Positions 40,527-46,307 of a stretch of 62,824 nucleotides of DNA are shown piece by piece; the first letter of the stretch is position 1, and each line of letters opens with the position of its first letter. The notes beneath the pieces are model-generated. The model was given only the letters and a program-made list of their open reading frames with translations, was not told where the DNA came from and did no database searches. The stretch is taken from assembly GCA_009697815.1 (NCBI GenBank), contig WLRQ01000009.1, positions 1 through 62,824 on the forward strand. The letters are read 5' to 3'. The position numbers were made by a program, and so were the translations under genes. The stretch comes from Actinomycetota bacterium (GTDB taxonomy: Bacteria > Actinomycetota > Actinomycetes > S36-B12 > CAIYMF01).

Positions 40527-40862
40527 TCAGCCGAGCCAGCCCACGACCTCGCGTACGGCGAACACCACGCCCACCGCGCTCAACGCGGCGAGATAGATCA
40601 GCACGAGTCGTACATCGCGCAGGTAGCACCGGCTCTGCGTCAGCCCCGCGCGGTGCGCGCGCCAATAGCCCGCGAATCCCAGAAGGGCGAATCCGAGAAG
40701 TGCGAAGGGCCCGAGTAGCCACGCGATCAGTGCGATCGTGGCGAAGATGCACAGGCGCAAGGGATCGAAGGACCCCTCAGAGGGCCTCGTGATCTCCTCG
40801 GGCTCACCGCAGTCCGGTTGCCCTGGTATGGGGCGACCTGGAGTGCCGGCGGGCGAGGTCAT
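40527..40862 (-). CDS. Small membrane protein at the end of the Lgt-like/radical SAM operon
   Basis: The 111-residue protein has a polar N-terminus of about 32 residues (MTSPAGTPGRPIPGQP), then a hydrophobic hairpin (CIFATIALIAWLLGPFALLG, FALLGFAGYW) and a third segment (LVLIYLAALSAVGVVFAV) separated by the basic loop RAHRAGLTQSRCYLRDVR. I do not recognise a named family. ATG 40862 overlaps the radical SAM stop (ATGA), implying coupled translation and related function. It could be a membrane partner for the upstream enzyme. Confidence 0.75.
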   Translation of the reverse strand: MTSPAGTPGRPIPGQPDCGEPEEITRPSEGSFDPLRLCIFATIALIAWLLGPFALLGFALLGFAGYWRAHRAGLTQSRCYLRDVRLVLIYLAALSAVGVVFAVREVVGWLG

Positions 40863-42448
40863 GAGCGAGCCGCCACGGCTTCGACATGCGAGAGCCGCTG
40901 GGCGGCCAGCGCTGGCCAGGCCTGCACCGCGCAGAACGGGGCACATTGATCCTGAGTGTCGCTGCGGGTGCCCACATGGACGCAGCACTGGGTCAACCGT
41001 TCTTCGATCATCGTGTGCTGATCCATGAATGGCTTCACGGTCACGCGTACCACCCGCTCGCCGAGCATGCGGCGAAGGGCTTCGTCACGGCCCGGAAGCC
41101 CGAGGTTCGCCGCCACTTTCAGCAGTGTGCCCAAGCCGAGGTCGCAGGCATCGCACACATCGCGCCACATGGTCGTGACCGATGGGTGGCTCAGGCTGCT
41201 CTGTTCGCTGAGCAGGCCGAGCAGCGACTGTCGAACAGCCTTGCGGAGTTCTCGAGGCAGTTCGCGATCGGCGATGCGGTTGGCGACGAGGCCGAGATAT
41301 TCCTTGAGTCGGTCGACTCCCACCATGCCGACTAGTGAGCGCCACTCGCCTGAGTCGGTGCGCAGCATGTATCCGACGCTGGCGCAGTGCGGGTGCGAGC
41401 AGGGGAGTGCGGTGAGATCGCGCCATGTGACGGCTCCGTCGGTCTGCGGGCCGAGCCGGGCCAGTACTCCGGTGTGCGTGAGGCGGTTCATGGGGTCAAG
41501 CGGTTGTGCCCGGCCCGACCCGAACACCGGCTGGATCGAGACCCCGCCGACGTAGGGGGTGGCGAGTGCGGTCATGACGACATCGCCGATCTCGTCGTCG
41601 TTGACGCCCAGTGTGGCCGTCATCGTCAAGGTCGTGAAGATCGCTGCGGCGGACAGTCGCGACATCGCCTCATGTTTGATCGCGGTGAGATCCCCACCGC
41701 GGTGGTGGCGGGAGGATTCCGCCCGGAGTCCGTCGAACTGCAGGTAGACCTCGACCCGGTCACGGTGGCGGTGCAGGAGTGCGATCAGATCGTCGTCGCG
41801 TGCGACGAGAAGCCCGTTGGTGTTGATGAGGATGCGCACGATATTGCGTGCCGCGAGCTCATCGAGCAGGCGCGGGAGTTCCGGGTGAAGGGTCGGTTCG
41901 CCGCCGCTGAGCATGACGACATCGATCCGTCCGTTCTCCCGTGCAAGTCGCTGGTCGACGTTCGCCAGGATGGATTCCACTGGGACGATCCCCCCGAGGT
42001 CGGGGGAGGAGTCCGTGAAACACGTGGGGCAGCGAAGGTTGCACACCTCCACGATGTCCTCGAGCAGGATGCAGGTGTGCTGGGTTTGCATCTCGCCGAG
42101 GCCTTGGAGGTAGGCCCCGGGCACTGGGTCGAAGTTCCCGACGGTATCTGGCACATGCCACTTGGTGGGTGCTGTCCACTGCTCGAGGTAGTCGAGGATC
42201 TCAGGACTCTCGTCGTACAGGGTGCGGATGAAGCCGTGCGTGGGGCACCCGCGCTCGAGCCACACCTTGCCGTCTCGTTCGGCCAGCCAGCCCGACAGGC
42301 GCCGTACCTCGGTCAGTGGCTGTTCCACTTGTGCCGCATGGCATTGCGGGCAGAAGCAGTTGACGTAACGCCGGATCTTGTCCCCTCGCAGGGGCATTCC
42401 CTCGCCCCAGGTGAGCGGCACTGTGTCGGCGATCGGCACCCCTGTCAT
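40859..42448 (-). CDS. Radical SAM protein of the Tes/MJ0619-like family
   Basis: The 529-residue protein has an N-terminal cysteine cluster (Cys31, 33, 36, then CPTH at 68-71) resembling the zinc/rubredoxin-like part of archaeal MJ0619. The radical SAM motif CNLRCPTC is at 136-143, SGGEPTLHPE at 181-190, a further PCSHPHC, and a C-terminal Cys group (about 488-506, CCVH and CAPFC). Archaeal Tes joins lipid tails and bacterial relatives include Mss; others are methylases. It is linked by ATGA overlaps to membrane proteins on both sides. Substrate unknown; a role on lipids is inference. Confidence 0.75.
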   Translation of the reverse strand: MTGVPIADTVPLTWGEGMPLRGDKIRRYVNCFCPQCHAAQVEQPLTEVRRLSGWLAERDGKVWLERGCPTHGFIRTLYDESPEILDYLEQWTAPTKWHVPDTVGNFDPVPGAYLQGLGEMQTQHTCILLEDIVEVCNLRCPTCFTDSSPDLGGIVPVESILANVDQRLARENGRIDVVMLSGGEPTLHPELPRLLDELAARNIVRILINTNGLLVARDDDLIALLHRHRDRVEVYLQFDGLRAESSRHHRGGDLTAIKHEAMSRLSAAAIFTTLTMTATLGVNDDEIGDVVMTALATPYVGGVSIQPVFGSGRAQPLDPMNRLTHTGVLARLGPQTDGAVTWRDLTALPCSHPHCASVGYMLRTDSGEWRSLVGMVGVDRLKEYLGLVANRIADRELPRELRKAVRQSLLGLLSEQSSLSHPSVTTMWRDVCDACDLGLGTLLKVAANLGLPGRDEALRRMLGERVVRVTVKPFMDQHTMIEERLTQCCVHVGTRSDTQDQCAPFCAVQAWPALAAQRLSHVEAVAARS

Positions 42449-42810
42449 CCGCTGTTCAAACTGGTGATCACTGCGACACAAAGTCCGGCGCCAACGATCA
42501 GCGCGAGGCCACAGCCGATAAGCACGCCCATCCAGACGCTGCGAGATCTGGGCGCGGTGCTTCGGTGGGTCGCGATCGAGGAGACGATGATCATCACGGG
42601 CACGGCGAGGATGATGAGCACCGGCAGGATGGGCAAGAACGGAAGGTACATCGTTAGCGACGAGGCCAGGAGCGAGGCCAGGAACGTCACTCCAGGTGCT
42701 CCGAGCGCCGTCGCGAGCGCAACTCCGACGACCACACCCGGCTGGTATCGCCGGGGCGGCTCGGCCCCTGGGTCAGTGAACTCCGCAGGCCAGGGCGGTT
42801 CGATGGTCAT
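42445..42810 (-). CDS. Small multi-pass membrane protein between the Lgt-like and radical SAM genes
   Basis: The 121-residue protein has a polar Pro-rich N-terminus (MTIEPPWPAEFTDPGAEPPR) and three or four membrane segments (VVVGVALATALGAPGVTFLA, LPFLPILPVLIILAVPVMII, WMGVLIGCGLALIVGAGLCV). No family is recognised. Its start overlaps the Lgt-like stop and its stop overlaps the radical SAM start, both as ATGA, so all three products are probably made in fixed ratio. Confidence 0.8.
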   Translation of the reverse strand: MTIEPPWPAEFTDPGAEPPRRYQPGVVVGVALATALGAPGVTFLASLLASSLTMYLPFLPILPVLIILAVPVMIIVSSIATHRSTAPRSRSVWMGVLIGCGLALIVGAGLCVAVITSLNSG

Positions 42811-43610
42811 GTCGTTCCTCTCGCGGGTTGGGCAAGGACAGTGGCGCTGCGGTAGGAACCGCGCCGAGCGGAGATCACGAGCCGACGCACCAAGAGCGGC
42901 GACACCACGACCAGGAACAGCTGCGAACGCGTAAGCCCGAAGACATCGGCTGGGTTGGCGCGAGTGAACTCGACCCCGAACCGGAATACGGCGTAAGCGG
43001 CGAGGAAGAGCACGAACAACTCGCCGGGTACCTGGATACGGTCTCGCCAGAGCATCATGGCGGCGAAGGCCAGCAGTAGAAAGCCGATCTCGTAGAGGAA
43101 TGACGGATGCATCGGCAAACCCGCGACGCAACCGGGGCATTCGGGTAGTGCCGCGGCGGCGTCGACGCGGATTCCCCACGGGAGTGTGGTCGGACGGCCA
43201 GGTGCCTCGGCCAGGAAGCAGCCGATCCTTCCGACCGCGAGGCCGAGTGCCACTGCGGGGGCGAACAGGTCGCCCGTCTTCCCTGAGTACCCGCCCAGGC
43301 GCTTGCCGATCAGCCCACCGACGTAGGCGCCCGTGAGACCGCCCAGGATGCTGCGCCCGCCCTCGGACCAGGCCCACGCGATTGCGCCGACACCGTCTTG
43401 GGTCGCGGCATCGATGACTCCCGCGAGCCTGCCTCCGATCGCGCCACCCACGATGACCCCGGCGATGACGGGGATGAGCCGTTCGTCCCACATCCGCCGC
43501 CGACGGGCCTCGTAGAGGAAGACCACAAACCCCACGACGAAGGCGAGGGCGACGAAGAAGTCATGGCTGGCAACGCGAACTCCCACGAGCGTGAACAGAG
43601 TCGGATACAT
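42807..43610 (-). CDS. Lgt-like membrane protein lacking key canonical residues
   Basis: This 267-residue multi-pass protein has the topology of prolipoprotein diacylglyceryl transferase. At positions matching Lgt essentials it differs: GGRSILGG (84-91) replaces GGMSFHGG, losing the essential His, and GRIGCF (127-132) replaces GRxGNF, losing the Asn. MHPSFLYE (167-174) and VFRFGVEFTR are kept. It is therefore probably a divergent subfamily acting on another lipid or acceptor. ATG 43610 lies 11 bases after AGGAG. It is the first gene of the four-gene ATGA-linked set. Confidence 0.82.
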   Translation of the reverse strand: MYPTLFTLVGVRVASHDFFVALAFVVGFVVFLYEARRRRMWDERLIPVIAGVIVGGAIGGRLAGVIDAATQDGVGAIAWAWSEGGRSILGGLTGAYVGGLIGKRLGGYSGKTGDLFAPAVALGLAVGRIGCFLAEAPGRPTTLPWGIRVDAAAALPECPGCVAGLPMHPSFLYEIGFLLLAFAAMMLWRDRIQVPGELFVLFLAAYAVFRFGVEFTRANPADVFGLTRSQLFLVVVSPLLVRRLVISARRGSYRSATVLAQPARGTT

Positions 43611-43749: not shown

Positions 43750-44076
43750 TCAGTCGTTCTCGCCGGATGGCCTCAAGGTCGACTCCTCTGATGGCAGCAC
43801 GATTGTGGCACCGGAGCGAGCGTCGAGGATCAGGCGTGCCAGGCGCTCGACCGCGGGGCCGATATCGCTCGACCCGCTAGGCGGACGGGTCGCCAGATTG
43901 GAGCAGCGCGCGACACAGCGCACCACGCTGCCGGCGGGGAGGTGTGGGTAGTCGGCGATGAGGCGGTCCATCACGGGCTGAAGCTGCGCACGTACCTCTC
44001 GGGGGGATGCTGGCCGCCCTGTCGAGAGATCCTGTGGCACATCCGCATTCCGCAACCGATCGCTGTCCTCGCTCAT
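43750..44076 (-). CDS. Small protein of unknown function (helical)
   Basis: The 108-residue soluble protein has a Glu/Arg-rich start (MSEDSDRLRNADVPQDL) and then helices PVMDRLIADYPHLPAGSVVR and AVERLARLILDARSG. The middle resembles small actinobacterial three-helix-bundle dimerisation domains, but I cannot assign it firmly. ATG 44076 overlaps the stop of the debranching-type gene (ATGA). The 139-base gap downstream, before the Lgt-like gene, holds no other feature I recognise. Confidence 0.7.
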   Translation of the reverse strand: MSEDSDRLRNADVPQDLSTGRPASPREVRAQLQPVMDRLIADYPHLPAGSVVRCVARCSNLATRPPSGSSDIGPAVERLARLILDARSGATIVLPSEESTLRPSGEND

Positions 44077-46307
44077 GTCGTTGACATCCCCCCCGCGGTG
44101 GCGGTTGCGGTGCGTGAGGCCACCCCATCGAGCTGAATGGCGATGCCGGGACTCCGCGGCTCGTGGATCGTGGTCACATCCTCCGGAAGCCCCTCGATCG
44201 AACTGGTGGAGGTGGTGACCTCGATCGCGACGCGCGTGCCGGCAAGTCCGACATTGTCGAGCCGGAAAGGCAGGTACTTTGCGGGCAGGACGGGGGTGAG
44301 GCGGACATCACCGCGACTGATCCCAGGGTCGAACTGAAGGAGCGAACGCAGCATCAGGATCGGAGCCGCGGCGGCCCAGGCCTGAGGTGAGCCGGAGGTG
44401 GGGTACGGGACGGGAAGATCGAAATCGGCCCGATCGAAACCGCAGAACAACTCGGGGAGCCGTCCCCCGAAGTGGTCCGCCGCCTCGAGTATGGCCGAGG
44501 CGACGAGTTGGGCTTCGGCGGTGAATCCGTAGCGGACGAGTCCGGCGACGGCGATGGCGTTGTCGTGGGGCCAGACTGAGCCGTTGTGGTAGCTCATGGG
44601 ATTGAAGGCGCCCATCGAACGACCCAGCGTGCGGATTCCCCAGCCCGAGAACAGGTCAGGGCCCACCAGGTGTGCTGCAACGTCTGCGGCTTTGTCCTCG
44701 TCGACGATCCCGGTCCACAGGCAGTGGGCCATGTTGGAGGCGAGTGCGTCGATGGGCCGTTTGTCACGATCGAGCCCGATCGCGTACCAACCACGATCGG
44801 GTAGCCAGAACTTCTCATTGAATGCGACCTTCAGGTCCGCGGCGCGCTGCGCCCAGCGTTCGCTCAGCGCCATGTCGCCGGCATCGCGAGCGAAGTGTGC
44901 GCGCGCGACATAGGCGGCGTACGCGTATCCCTGGACCTCGCACAGTGCAATGGGTGCATCGGCGAGCCGTCCATCGGCGAAGTTGACGCCGTCGAACGAA
45001 TCCTTCCAGCCCTGGTTGCGCAGGCCGCGATCGGTAGCGCGCTCGTACTCCAGGAATCCGTCGCCGTCTCGATCGCCCGAGGCGGTCATCCACTCGAGGG
45101 CCCGATCCGCTGCGGGGAGAAGGGCTTGGACCTCCGACGTCGACAGCCCCCAGCGTCGTAGTTCGCCGAGGAGCATCACGAAGAGCGGCGTGGAATCGAT
45201 ACTGCCGTAGTAGACGTGGCCGCCCCCGCGCACCGTGGAGGAGCGGCCGAATCGCATCTCATGCAGGATTCGGCCGGGCTGCTCCTCCGACAGCGGGTTG
45301 ACCCTGCGCCCTTGGTCCGCGGCAAGAGCCTGCAGCGTGCCGAGCGCTAGCCGATAGTCGAGCAAGAGGAGCATCCACGACGCGATGAGGGAATCGCGAC
45401 CGAAGAGGGTCATGAACCACGGCGCACCCGCCGCCACGACCGCGCGGTCGGGGTGTTCGGCGTCGAAAATTCGCAAGGACCCCAGGTCGGCGATGCTGCA
45501 CTGCAGGGTGCGGGTGAGGCTGGCATCAGGTGTGGTCAAAACTGATGCACCTGCGAGCCATTCCTGCGCGCGACGGTCCGCGGCCAGGGCCGATTGCTCG
45601 ATCCCGTCATGGCCCAGCGGTAGCAGTCGTACGTCGTCGATGCTCGCTTCGACGATCACGGTGCATGACCACTCGGTGCGCGCAGGAACGGCGAGGTGCC
45701 AACTCACGTGCCCGGGGCTGAGATCAGCCTCAATCGCTTCGGATTCGGCGGAATCCGTGGTGGACGTAGCAGGGCCCGCAAGGATGCGCACCCCGCGGCT
45801 GTGACCTCGGCGTGACTGGCGCAGTTCGAGCGCACCGTCCGTCACGCGGCTCGTGATCCCGGTGTGCGGCCTGAGTCGTTGCTCCTTGACCTCGAACAGA
45901 TCGGCGAAGTCCGCGGCGACGCGCAAGGAGATCGTGATTCCGGCAGCCTCGCGTCCGAGGTTGTGCACGCTGATCCGCTCCCGCATGCCTTCGCTGACTT
46001 CACGCTCGCGCACGACGAGGACTGTGCTGTCAGCCAGTCCCGGGCGCGGATGTGACCGCGTCACGAACTGCGCCCGGAAAGGGTTGGGGGAGGTGACGCT
46101 GAGAGGTTCGAGCCGCTCACCGTCCACCTCGAGCAACCACTCCGACACGATCCGGGTGTCGCGGACGAACAACCCCATCGGGGCGCCCGGGATGATGTTC
46201 CCGGTAGACGCGCTGATGCAGAAGGACGATCCCTCGATCACGGTGGTCATCGTCGCCGCCACGGCGGTCGGCGGCGGTGTTCCCGTGAATGCCCAGCCTT
46301 CGGTCAT
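44073..46307 (-). CDS. Glycogen debranching/amylo-alpha-1,6-glucosidase-type protein
   Basis: The 744-residue protein has an N-terminal all-beta domain (SFCISASTGNIIPGAPMGLF, GLFVRDTRIVSEWLLEVDGE) of the GDE_N_bis type and a C-terminal (alpha/alpha)6 toroid like GH15/GH133 glucosidases. Motifs: GAPWFMTLFGRDSLIASWML, LRNQGWKDSFDGVNFADG, YHNGSVWPHDNAIAVAGLVR. It would hydrolyse alpha-glucosidic bonds in storage glucan or a compatible-solute glycoside. It is ATGA-coupled to a GT4 glycosyltransferase upstream and a small protein downstream. The natural substrate is uncertain. Confidence 0.88.
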   Translation of the reverse strand: MTEGWAFTGTPPPTAVAATMTTVIEGSSFCISASTGNIIPGAPMGLFVRDTRIVSEWLLEVDGERLEPLSVTSPNPFRAQFVTRSHPRPGLADSTVLVVREREVSEGMRERISVHNLGREAAGITISLRVAADFADLFEVKEQRLRPHTGITSRVTDGALELRQSRRGHSRGVRILAGPATSTTDSAESEAIEADLSPGHVSWHLAVPARTEWSCTVIVEASIDDVRLLPLGHDGIEQSALAADRRAQEWLAGASVLTTPDASLTRTLQCSIADLGSLRIFDAEHPDRAVVAAGAPWFMTLFGRDSLIASWMLLLLDYRLALGTLQALAADQGRRVNPLSEEQPGRILHEMRFGRSSTVRGGGHVYYGSIDSTPLFVMLLGELRRWGLSTSEVQALLPAADRALEWMTASGDRDGDGFLEYERATDRGLRNQGWKDSFDGVNFADGRLADAPIALCEVQGYAYAAYVARAHFARDAGDMALSERWAQRAADLKVAFNEKFWLPDRGWYAIGLDRDKRPIDALASNMAHCLWTGIVDEDKAADVAAHLVGPDLFSGWGIRTLGRSMGAFNPMSYHNGSVWPHDNAIAVAGLVRYGFTAEAQLVASAILEAADHFGGRLPELFCGFDRADFDLPVPYPTSGSPQAWAAAAPILMLRSLLQFDPGISRGDVRLTPVLPAKYLPFRLDNVGLAGTRVAIEVTTSTSSIEGLPEDVTTIHEPRSPGIAIQLDGVASRTATATAGGMSTT

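Follow-up and report, generated by a model that had tools for sequence, protein, structure and literature searches.

What do four adjoining genes on the minus strand of this actinobacterial contig make? The window, which is the whole 62,824-nucleotide stretch that was analysed, here encodes an Lgt-like membrane protein, a radical SAM (rSAM) enzyme and two small membrane proteins, S2 and S4 (Table 1). The operon is uncharacterised and probably makes a modified membrane lipid. Its four genes and their three ATGA overlaps (Lgt-like/S2, 42807-42810; S2/rSAM, 42445-42448; rSAM/S4, 40859-40862) are exactly as the initial annotation had described them. The overlaps had been read there as implying a complex of fixed ratio, which by themselves they do not. 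Two unrelated genes immediately upstream (43750-44076 / 44073-46307) also overlap by ATGA, so the overlap alone is weak evidence, and in the orthologs ATGA at a start codon is by itself no proof of overlap. A scan for promoters and terminators gave no signal above chance. It is the conservation of the gene set that exceeds chance.

Table 1. Positions of the operon genes and of their conserved motifs in the window
Feature	Position	Strand	Remarks
Lgt-like membrane protein gene	42807..43610	-	267 aa; PF01790 E 2.5e-37
Lgt signature motif G127-RIGCFLAEAP-G138, Cys replacing Asn146	43197..43232	-	Alignment with 5azb and 85 orthologs
S2, small membrane protein gene	42445..42810	-	121 aa
Codon of conserved S2 C111, lipobox-like context VGAGLC	42478..42480	-	Consensus [ST][AV]G[FIYL]C
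rSAM enzyme gene, Tes/TrsS superfamily	40859..42448	-	529 aa, ATG start at 42448
Rubredoxin-like / zinc-ribbon Cys3His site C33xxC36 ... C68xxH71	42236..42352	-	Aligns with C9/C12/C33/H36 of MJ0619; invariant, 88 orthologs
Radical SAM cluster motif CNLRCPTC (C136, C140, C143), residues 136-143	42020..42043	-	Cysteines invariant, 88 orthologs
C-terminal cluster cysteines C488, C489, C502, C506	40931..40987	-	C488/C489/C506 align with Tes C455/C456/C470
S4, small membrane protein gene	40527..40862	-	111 aa

In 77 of 80 ortholog loci, the rSAM gene is preceded on the same strand by the Lgt-like gene. In the remaining three, the rSAM match begins at most 453 bases from a contig end, and the pairing is found in all 77 actinobacterial loci with enough sequence to show it. 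The module is accessory: the rSAM gene is present in 37 of 148 Mycobacterium genomes, each time with the Lgt-like gene beside it (37/37). Three more Mycobacterium genomes have the Lgt-like gene without the rSAM gene, two at contig edges and one as a decayed fragment. A phylum-wide draw gave the pairing in 5/5 cases. Conservation of the pair had been set beforehand as a test of the initial annotation, and it held.

Carriers of the module are many actinobacteria, including environmental mycobacteria and Nocardia, and it occurs on plasmids, one of them from Mycobacterium avium. Within the window's genus the genes flanking it are not syntenic. The same pair is found on one Bacteroidota plasmid (Persicobacter), the sole non-actinobacterial case among the genomes scanned, and is thus not limited to actinobacteria; a search of viral contigs gave no match. 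In the Lgt tree, which has long branches, the module proteins including that of Persicobacter form one clade (support 99/99), whereas the Persicobacter rSAM protein takes no settled position in two trees. None of the 20 next-nearest Lgt proteins is encoded close to such an rSAM gene. In the literature, no paper was found that links an Lgt homolog to a Tes-like rSAM gene.

The Lgt-like protein belongs to the Lgt superfamily (128.9 bits against PF01790, cut-off 24.9), and the best PDB match of its AlphaFold model is E. coli Lgt (5azb, E 7.6e-5), with no other match below 0.001. Against the TIGR00544 equivalog it scores 81.1 bits, below the cut-off of 118.9 that the canonical Lgt of the same genome passes with 127.8 bits. 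With E. coli Lgt it has in common the fold, the frame of the signature motif, G154, and residues R143, E202, Y235, R239, E243 and R246. The first four of these six, which form the donor pocket of Lgt and bind phosphatidylglycerol (PMC4728403), are retained in 85/85 orthologs; E243 and R246 are retained as well. Residues Y26, H/Y/W/F103 and N146 are essential in Lgt (PMC4728403, PMC13251419). All three are replaced in every one of the 85 orthologs (Y26H, H103L/I, N146C). The protein is a divergent Lgt, as the initial annotation had it, with the changes on the acceptor side, and a canonical Lgt function was rejected as improbable. A separate canonical Lgt with N146 and W103 is encoded elsewhere in the window's genome (label G000:C17), and the making of lipoproteins therefore does not need the module gene. 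Since Y26, H103 and N146 are lost, the module protein might act as a scaffold that binds lipid and not be a transferase.

A counterpart has been described in Mycobacterium smegmatis. MSMEG_5408, the second Lgt homolog of this species, carries exactly Y26H and N146C and is presumed to have low Lgt activity, according to the accessible part of PMC13251419, which makes no mention of a radical SAM partner. On this two-residue signature, MSMEG_5408 is very probably the Lgt-like protein of the module.

The rSAM enzyme contains a radical SAM domain (PF04055, E 1.7e-19) and an N-terminal zinc ribbon (PF23545, 3.1e-11). The latter carries the name HMPTM, which we take to come from an old pterin methyltransferase annotation. 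This name would suit an enzyme acting on a soluble small molecule while the membrane proteins act separately, and MJ0619 was indeed once called a pterin methylase. Such a substrate is very improbable: no corroboration was obtained for the pterin annotation of MJ0619, a protein with a hydrophobic pocket (PMC9433317), and the strict linkage of the gene to those of membrane proteins points to a substrate in the membrane.

Among PDB sequences, residues 48-508 of the enzyme match the archaeal tetraether lipid synthase Tes/GDGT-MAS (MJ0619; PDB 7TOL, 7TOM) with E 1.4e-30 (7tol). Foldseek aligns the model, the pLDDT of which is a moderate 64, with 7tom over the full length (E 8e-22, 528 columns, TM 0.63/0.66). 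The next class is SkfB with E 1.6e-6. This gap, and the lack of any SPASM match in Pfam, rule out a SPASM peptide-maturation enzyme, the second test that had been set beforehand. The best NCBIfam match is the radical SAM (seleno)protein TrsS (NF045646), at 185.5 bits against a cut-off of 490, followed by Tes (NF045702), at 147 against 450. The TrsS-like proteins of other loci also stay below the 490-bit cut-off, at 296-335 bits. To our knowledge, no function has been established for TrsS.

With Tes, the module enzyme shares the Cys3His site, which is separate from and N-terminal to CNLRCPTC, the CX3CX2C radical cluster, the SAM/5'-deoxyadenosine contacts F106, R210 and Q268 (88/88 orthologs), and three C-terminal cluster cysteines, C488, C489 and C506 (again 88/88). 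The CNLRCPTC, CC and CAPFC groups that had been noticed from the sequence lie at residues 136-143, 488-489 and 502-506. Unlike Tes, with which its identity is about 20%, the enzyme has an Lgt-like partner, extra cysteines including the new C502, and no N-terminal cluster. The ligands C73/C77/C80/His of that cluster are V/Q/G/Q in the window protein, and none of the four is the consensus among the 88 orthologs. Furthermore, C438 is replaced by V/I, Met439 by Lys (Lys472 in the window) and Tyr459 by Val. C126, PCxxPxC (C350, C355) and C432/C435 are common to the module enzyme and the TrsS-like proteins, from which it nevertheless separates as a fully supported clade. The TrsS-like genes of loci L099 and L117-L119 have a methyltransferase gene directly downstream, whereas only the Lgt-like, S2 and S4 genes travel with the module enzyme. 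Membership of Tes was rejected for the low score and the loss of the N-terminal cluster and Met439, and membership of TrsS for the low score and the missing methyltransferase partner. By its sequence, the enzyme is a member of the Tes/TrsS superfamily and is neither Tes nor TrsS; the likeness to archaeal Tes/MJ0619 seen in the initial annotation stands for sequence and fold, not for Tes proper.

In the structure of GDGT-MAS, two phospholipids occupy a hydrophobic tunnel (PMC9433317). The region of Tes that corresponds to the C-terminal part of the module enzyme contributes the second lipid pocket and the cluster domain. Residues 385-449 and 486-529 of the model have pLDDT below 50, and the model therefore does not demonstrate a lipid tunnel. 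The Persicobacter protein is without the equivalents of C455 and C470, which may mean that the two phyla do not share the same chemistry.

The enzyme might couple two acyl tails by a C-C bond, as in Tes or Mss, with the Lgt-like protein supplying or positioning phosphatidylglycerol. A membrane-spanning lipid synthase of this kind is a narrower form of the lipid-modifying complex described below. In its favour, no solved structure is closer than that of the tail-coupling GDGT-MAS, which is also the one relative to have been characterised, the equivalents of C455, C456 and C470 are kept, and it has been proposed that Tes homologs of bacteria make membrane-spanning lipids (PMC8941075). Against this, 88/88 orthologs have other residues in place of Met439, Tyr459 and the entire N-terminal cluster; the first two are dispensable in mutant Tes (PMC9433317). 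The NCBIfam score and the extra cysteines place the enzyme nearer to TrsS. Reports of membrane-spanning lipids in Nocardia, Nonomuraea or mycobacteria are not known to us, which also counts against tail coupling, and we regard it as rather unlikely.

Fifteen cysteines of the enzyme, among them C502 and the TrsS-type C126, C350, C355, C432 and C435, are invariant or nearly so. Together with the bond between cluster sulfur and lipid carbon in the GDGT-MAS intermediate (PMC9433317), they would be in keeping with insertion of cluster sulfur into an acyl chain to give a thiol or thioether lipid, as in lipoyl or biotin synthase. The module holds no sulfur-handling partner gene and the argument is purely inferential, which makes sulfur insertion quite unlikely.

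Neither S2 nor S4 reaches the cut-off of any family in Pfam or NCBIfam. A family HMM finds S2 as a neighbour of the Lgt-like gene or the rSAM gene in the majority of ortholog loci, and detects none in Persicobacter or two actinobacterial loci. According to its own family HMM, S4 accompanies most of the non-mycobacterial orthologs and some of those in mycobacteria, and is missing from many mycobacterial loci; it has the motif DPLRLC...GYwrArRaGLtrSkC.LrDtRLV with two conserved cysteines, one of which lies in a positively charged loop. In all 92 S2 proteins a cysteine stands near the C-terminus, at the predicted outer end of the last transmembrane helix. The C-terminal part of most S2 proteins consists of a positively flanked helix, then [ST][AV]G-x-C, then a short tail, the arrangement that lipoprotein signal peptides have, and 5/92 members contain a true lipobox. 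This suggests that S2, and perhaps S4, might be the substrate: the Lgt-like protein would lipidate the cysteine of S2, and the peptide or its attached lipid would be modified by the rSAM enzyme. In most members, however, the spacing from the small residue to the cysteine is one residue longer. As S2 also went undetected in the loci named above and the enzyme does not belong with the SPASM peptide maturases, maturation of S2 appears unlikely.

By combining the above observations, we consider it moderately probable that the four gene products form a lipid-modifying complex at the membrane, which would use a radical to alter a lipid tail and would pass a diacylglyceryl group derived from phosphatidylglycerol to a non-standard acceptor. 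This reading is favoured because the rSAM enzyme resembles the lipid-tail-coupling GDGT-MAS/Tes over its whole length and is invariably paired with a phosphatidylglycerol-binding fold, because its SAM/5'-deoxyadenosine contacts and the donor pocket of its partner are kept throughout, and because the two membrane protein families that travel with it have conserved cysteines.

We infer the substrate, the reaction, the formation of a complex and the acceptor as follows. The cytosolic rSAM enzyme would be held at the membrane by S4 and perhaps S2. Its CNLRCPTC cluster would generate a 5'-deoxyadenosyl radical, which would remove hydrogen from a carbon in the acyl chain of a membrane lipid that enters a Tes-like hydrophobic tunnel. 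The C-terminal cysteine cluster would then capture or quench the radical, leaving a tail that is C-C coupled, sulfur-bearing or otherwise functionalised. The Lgt-like protein would bind phosphatidylglycerol in its retained donor pocket and move the diacylglyceryl group, possibly modified, to the non-standard acceptor. Its acceptor side is rebuilt and now carries His26 and Cys146; the rebuilt part takes in the HGGL region, the proposed binding site of the lipobox peptide. The invariant, outward-facing cysteine of S2 is a speculative candidate for the acceptor. The modification or cross-linking of membrane lipids that had first been suggested is partly supported: the Tes likeness, the divergent Lgt and the conserved pairing hold, while cross-linking is one among a number of possible reactions and is not marked out from the others. 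A more specific proposal, to which we give only a small chance, is a new pathway in which a radical-modified diacylglyceryl group is transferred by a rewired Lgt to the S2 cysteine or another non-lipoprotein acceptor, spread by plasmids among actinobacteria and at least one other phylum.

Bacterial Tes homologs are widespread and are reported without a confirmed function (PMC9433317, PMC8941075, PMC11868695). The module gives one Tes/TrsS-type group an invariable membrane partner of known substrate class, phosphatidylglycerol, which makes the question of the rSAM substrate directly testable. The co-conserved pair would allow the lipid to be searched for by comparing strains with and without the module. 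The module may also account for the presence of a second Lgt in environmental mycobacteria, a protein that looks ill-suited to making lipoproteins. In Nocardia and nontuberculous mycobacteria, envelope properties could be affected by such an accessory set of lipid-modifying genes carried on plasmids.

The Lgt-like protein, the small membrane proteins S2 and S4 and the radical SAM protein (rSAM) are encoded by four minus-strand genes, which together with their three ATGA overlaps lie exactly at the positions of the initial annotation. Because another ATGA overlap joins a neighbouring pair in the window, such overlaps alone are weak evidence. Gaps of 139 bases (upstream) and 88 bases (downstream) separate the set from its neighbours, and the four genes therefore look like a discrete operon. 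Both flanks are unrelated to the module: EamA transporter and acyl-CoA dehydrogenase genes lie on one side, and the products encoded on the other are a 108-aa protein that matches no Pfam family and an enzyme of the glycogen-debranching type.

Coordinates of the module in the window and of features at compared loci
Feature	Locus	Coordinates
Lgt-like protein (P0001, 267 aa)	window, minus strand	43610-42807
S2 (121 aa)	window, minus strand	42810-42445
rSAM (529 aa)	window, minus strand	42448-40859
S4 (111 aa)	window, minus strand	40862-40527
Neighbouring pair with ATGA overlap	window	43750-44076/44073-46307
TrsS-like gene, then methyltransferase gene	L099	5959-8327
TrsS-like gene, then methyltransferase gene	L117	4884-7162
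TrsS-like gene, then methyltransferase gene	L118	4962-7125
TrsS-like gene, then methyltransferase gene	L119	4965-7075
Module, plasmid pS2b	L096	4225-7545
Module, M. branderi plasmid	L097	4355-7548
Two DUF3558 proteins	L097	3237-4294
Decayed Lgt-like fragment, Mycobacterium	G382:C79	9523-9888

The observation itself is confirmed, and the case for it is stronger than could be known when it was made. A scan of genome contigs yielded 80 close rSAM orthologs (69-80% identity) from Nocardia, Mycobacterium/Mycolicibacterium, Nonomuraea, Microbispora, Microtetraspora, Planomonospora, Aldersonia and uncultured actinobacteria. At 77 of the 80 loci, rSAM is preceded by the Lgt-like gene in the same orientation; at the other three, no more than 453 bases separate the start of the rSAM match from a contig end. 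Of 296 genomes drawn across the phylum, five contain a close rSAM ortholog, adjoined by the Lgt-like gene in all five; among the matches listed, Lgt matches unpaired with rSAM reach at best E = 2.6e-35, versus 2.5e-52 or better when paired. The rSAM gene is present in 37 of 148 Mycobacterium genomes and adjoins the Lgt-like gene in 37/37. Three further genomes of the 148 have the Lgt-like gene without rSAM, two at contig edges and one (G382) as a fragment with a stop codon in a genome having no rSAM gene, which is consistent with joint loss of both genes. The genes flanking the module vary from lineage to lineage. The conserved pairing, the occurrence within Mycobacterium and the varied flanks show, therefore, that the module is accessory, gained and lost as one set.

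By sequence and fold, the nearest solved structure to rSAM, over its whole length, is the archaeal tetraether synthase GDGT-MAS/Tes (MJ0619). The NCBIfam models rank the related family TrsS first and Tes second, both with scores far under the cut-offs. In trees, a long branch leads to a clade of the module rSAM proteins, with full support, and separates it from TrsS-like and haloarchaeal proteins. The initial annotation, which proposed a Tes-like enzyme modifying lipids with an Lgt-like partner, is supported in part: it was right about the superfamily and the partner, but the enzyme is not Tes itself. Like Tes, rSAM keeps the rubredoxin-like site, the radical cluster and the adenosine contacts F106, R210 and Q268; unlike Tes, it has no N-terminal cluster. 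With the exact ligands of the Tes C-terminal cluster taken from conservation and not from structure, C455, C456 and C470 are retained, V/K stand in place of C438/Met439 and V in place of Tyr459, and C502 is new. The extra cysteines C126, C350, C355, C432 and C435 also occur in TrsS-like proteins; of the five, C355 alone has a cysteine as its aligned residue in Tes. Confidence is low for the C-terminal half of the predicted model, so that a lipid tunnel would be hypothetical; the module may cross-link tails or insert sulfur.

TrsS-like genes have a methyltransferase gene directly downstream in all four annotated cases, and no such partner was seen for the module rSAM gene. This sister group resides on one mycobacterial plasmid and on haloarchaeal plasmids, in two of which DUF547 and redoxin-type genes lie nearby. 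Because some genomes, such as G253, carry both types, the two are probably not interchangeable.

The partner protein has the Lgt fold, according to its Pfam match and a predicted-structure search. In the structure of E. coli Lgt, whose numbering is used for the aligned positions, R143, E202, Y235 and R239 are among the donor-pocket residues, and the HGGL motif was proposed to bind the acceptor peptide (PMC4728403). These four residues, together with E243, R246 and G154, are retained in 85/85 orthologs, while Y26 is replaced by His, H103 by Leu or Ile and N146 by Cys in all 85. Thus, the donor half is conserved and the acceptor half rebuilt. Among the 20 Lgt proteins next nearest in the phylum, those with a readable N-terminus have Tyr, Trp or Phe, not His, at the Y26 place, and no Tes/TrsS-type rSAM gene lies within the few kb flanking each of the 20. 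The module protein may be a transferase that uses a different acceptor, perhaps with H16 serving as a relocated base; alternatively, it may be a scaffold that binds phosphatidylglycerol. Since Y26H and N146C are described, with presumed low Lgt activity, for mycobacterial MSMEG_5408 (PMC13251419), MSMEG_5408 is very probably an ortholog of the module protein. Three further cysteines are conserved, C131 in the Lgt signature motif and C158 and C161 of a CPGC that is predicted to lie in the outer head region (81-82 of 86 orthologs); they could form a disulfide or a metal site.

S2 and S4 are two real protein families, as found with HMMs built from the module loci, and neither matches a Pfam or NCBIfam family above cut-off. 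The C-terminal part of S2 typically reads KGLGxGLMIGWAL...[ST][AV]G[FIYL]C, followed by a short tail, and the S4 consensus is DPLrLCvyaT...GYwrArRaGLtrSkC.LrDtRLV. Genes most often run Lgt-S2-rSAM-S4; S2 comes before the Lgt-like gene in Nonomuraea, and S4 is absent from many mycobacterial loci. All 92 S2 matches have a cysteine near the C-terminus, usually where the last helix ends, and by the positive-inside rule this end is predicted to face outwards. The layout is that of a lipoprotein signal peptide, but an exact lipobox fit is found in only 5/92; the module may modify or lipidate S2.

On a plasmid of Persicobacter psychrovividus (Bacteroidota), the last bases of an Lgt-like gene overlap the first bases of an rSAM gene of the Tes/TrsS type. 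The Lgt-like protein is 30% identical to P0001 (90 bits, versus 50 bits for the separate canonical Lgt present in the window's genome) and groups with the module clade with 99/99 support, though on long branches; the rSAM tree leaves its partner's position unsettled. The Persicobacter Lgt-like protein has His, Met and Cys at the Y26, H103 and N146 places and does not contain CPGC. In the Persicobacter rSAM the actinobacterial pattern is inverted: the N-terminal cluster is still there, but two cysteines of the C-terminal cluster are gone. It follows that the core shared by all these modules consists of the Lgt-like protein and rSAM, with S2 and S4 as apparent actinobacterial additions.

Plasmids carry the module in clinically relevant mycobacteria, namely pS2b in M. 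avium subsp. hominissuis and another plasmid in M. branderi. The pS2b copy hardly differs from the one in M. kyorinense (L033; end branches 0 and 0.002), which suggests recent transfer between species. Immediately upstream of its Lgt-like gene, the M. branderi plasmid encodes two DUF3558 proteins.

These genes form a co-inherited membrane module, in which a Tes/TrsS-superfamily radical enzyme is paired with an Lgt whose donor side is conserved and whose acceptor side is altered, and to which the two new families S2 and S4 belong. The radical chemistry would target an acyl tail, either of phosphatidylglycerol or of a lipid derived from it, and a diacylglyceryl group would be transferred or presented. 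The hypothetical M. smegmatis gene MSMEG_5406, close in locus number to MSMEG_5408, shows an about 9-fold fall on zinc starvation (PMC7174638). If MSMEG_5406 is part of the module, the operon may respond to zinc, as would fit the zinc-ribbon/rubredoxin site that it encodes.
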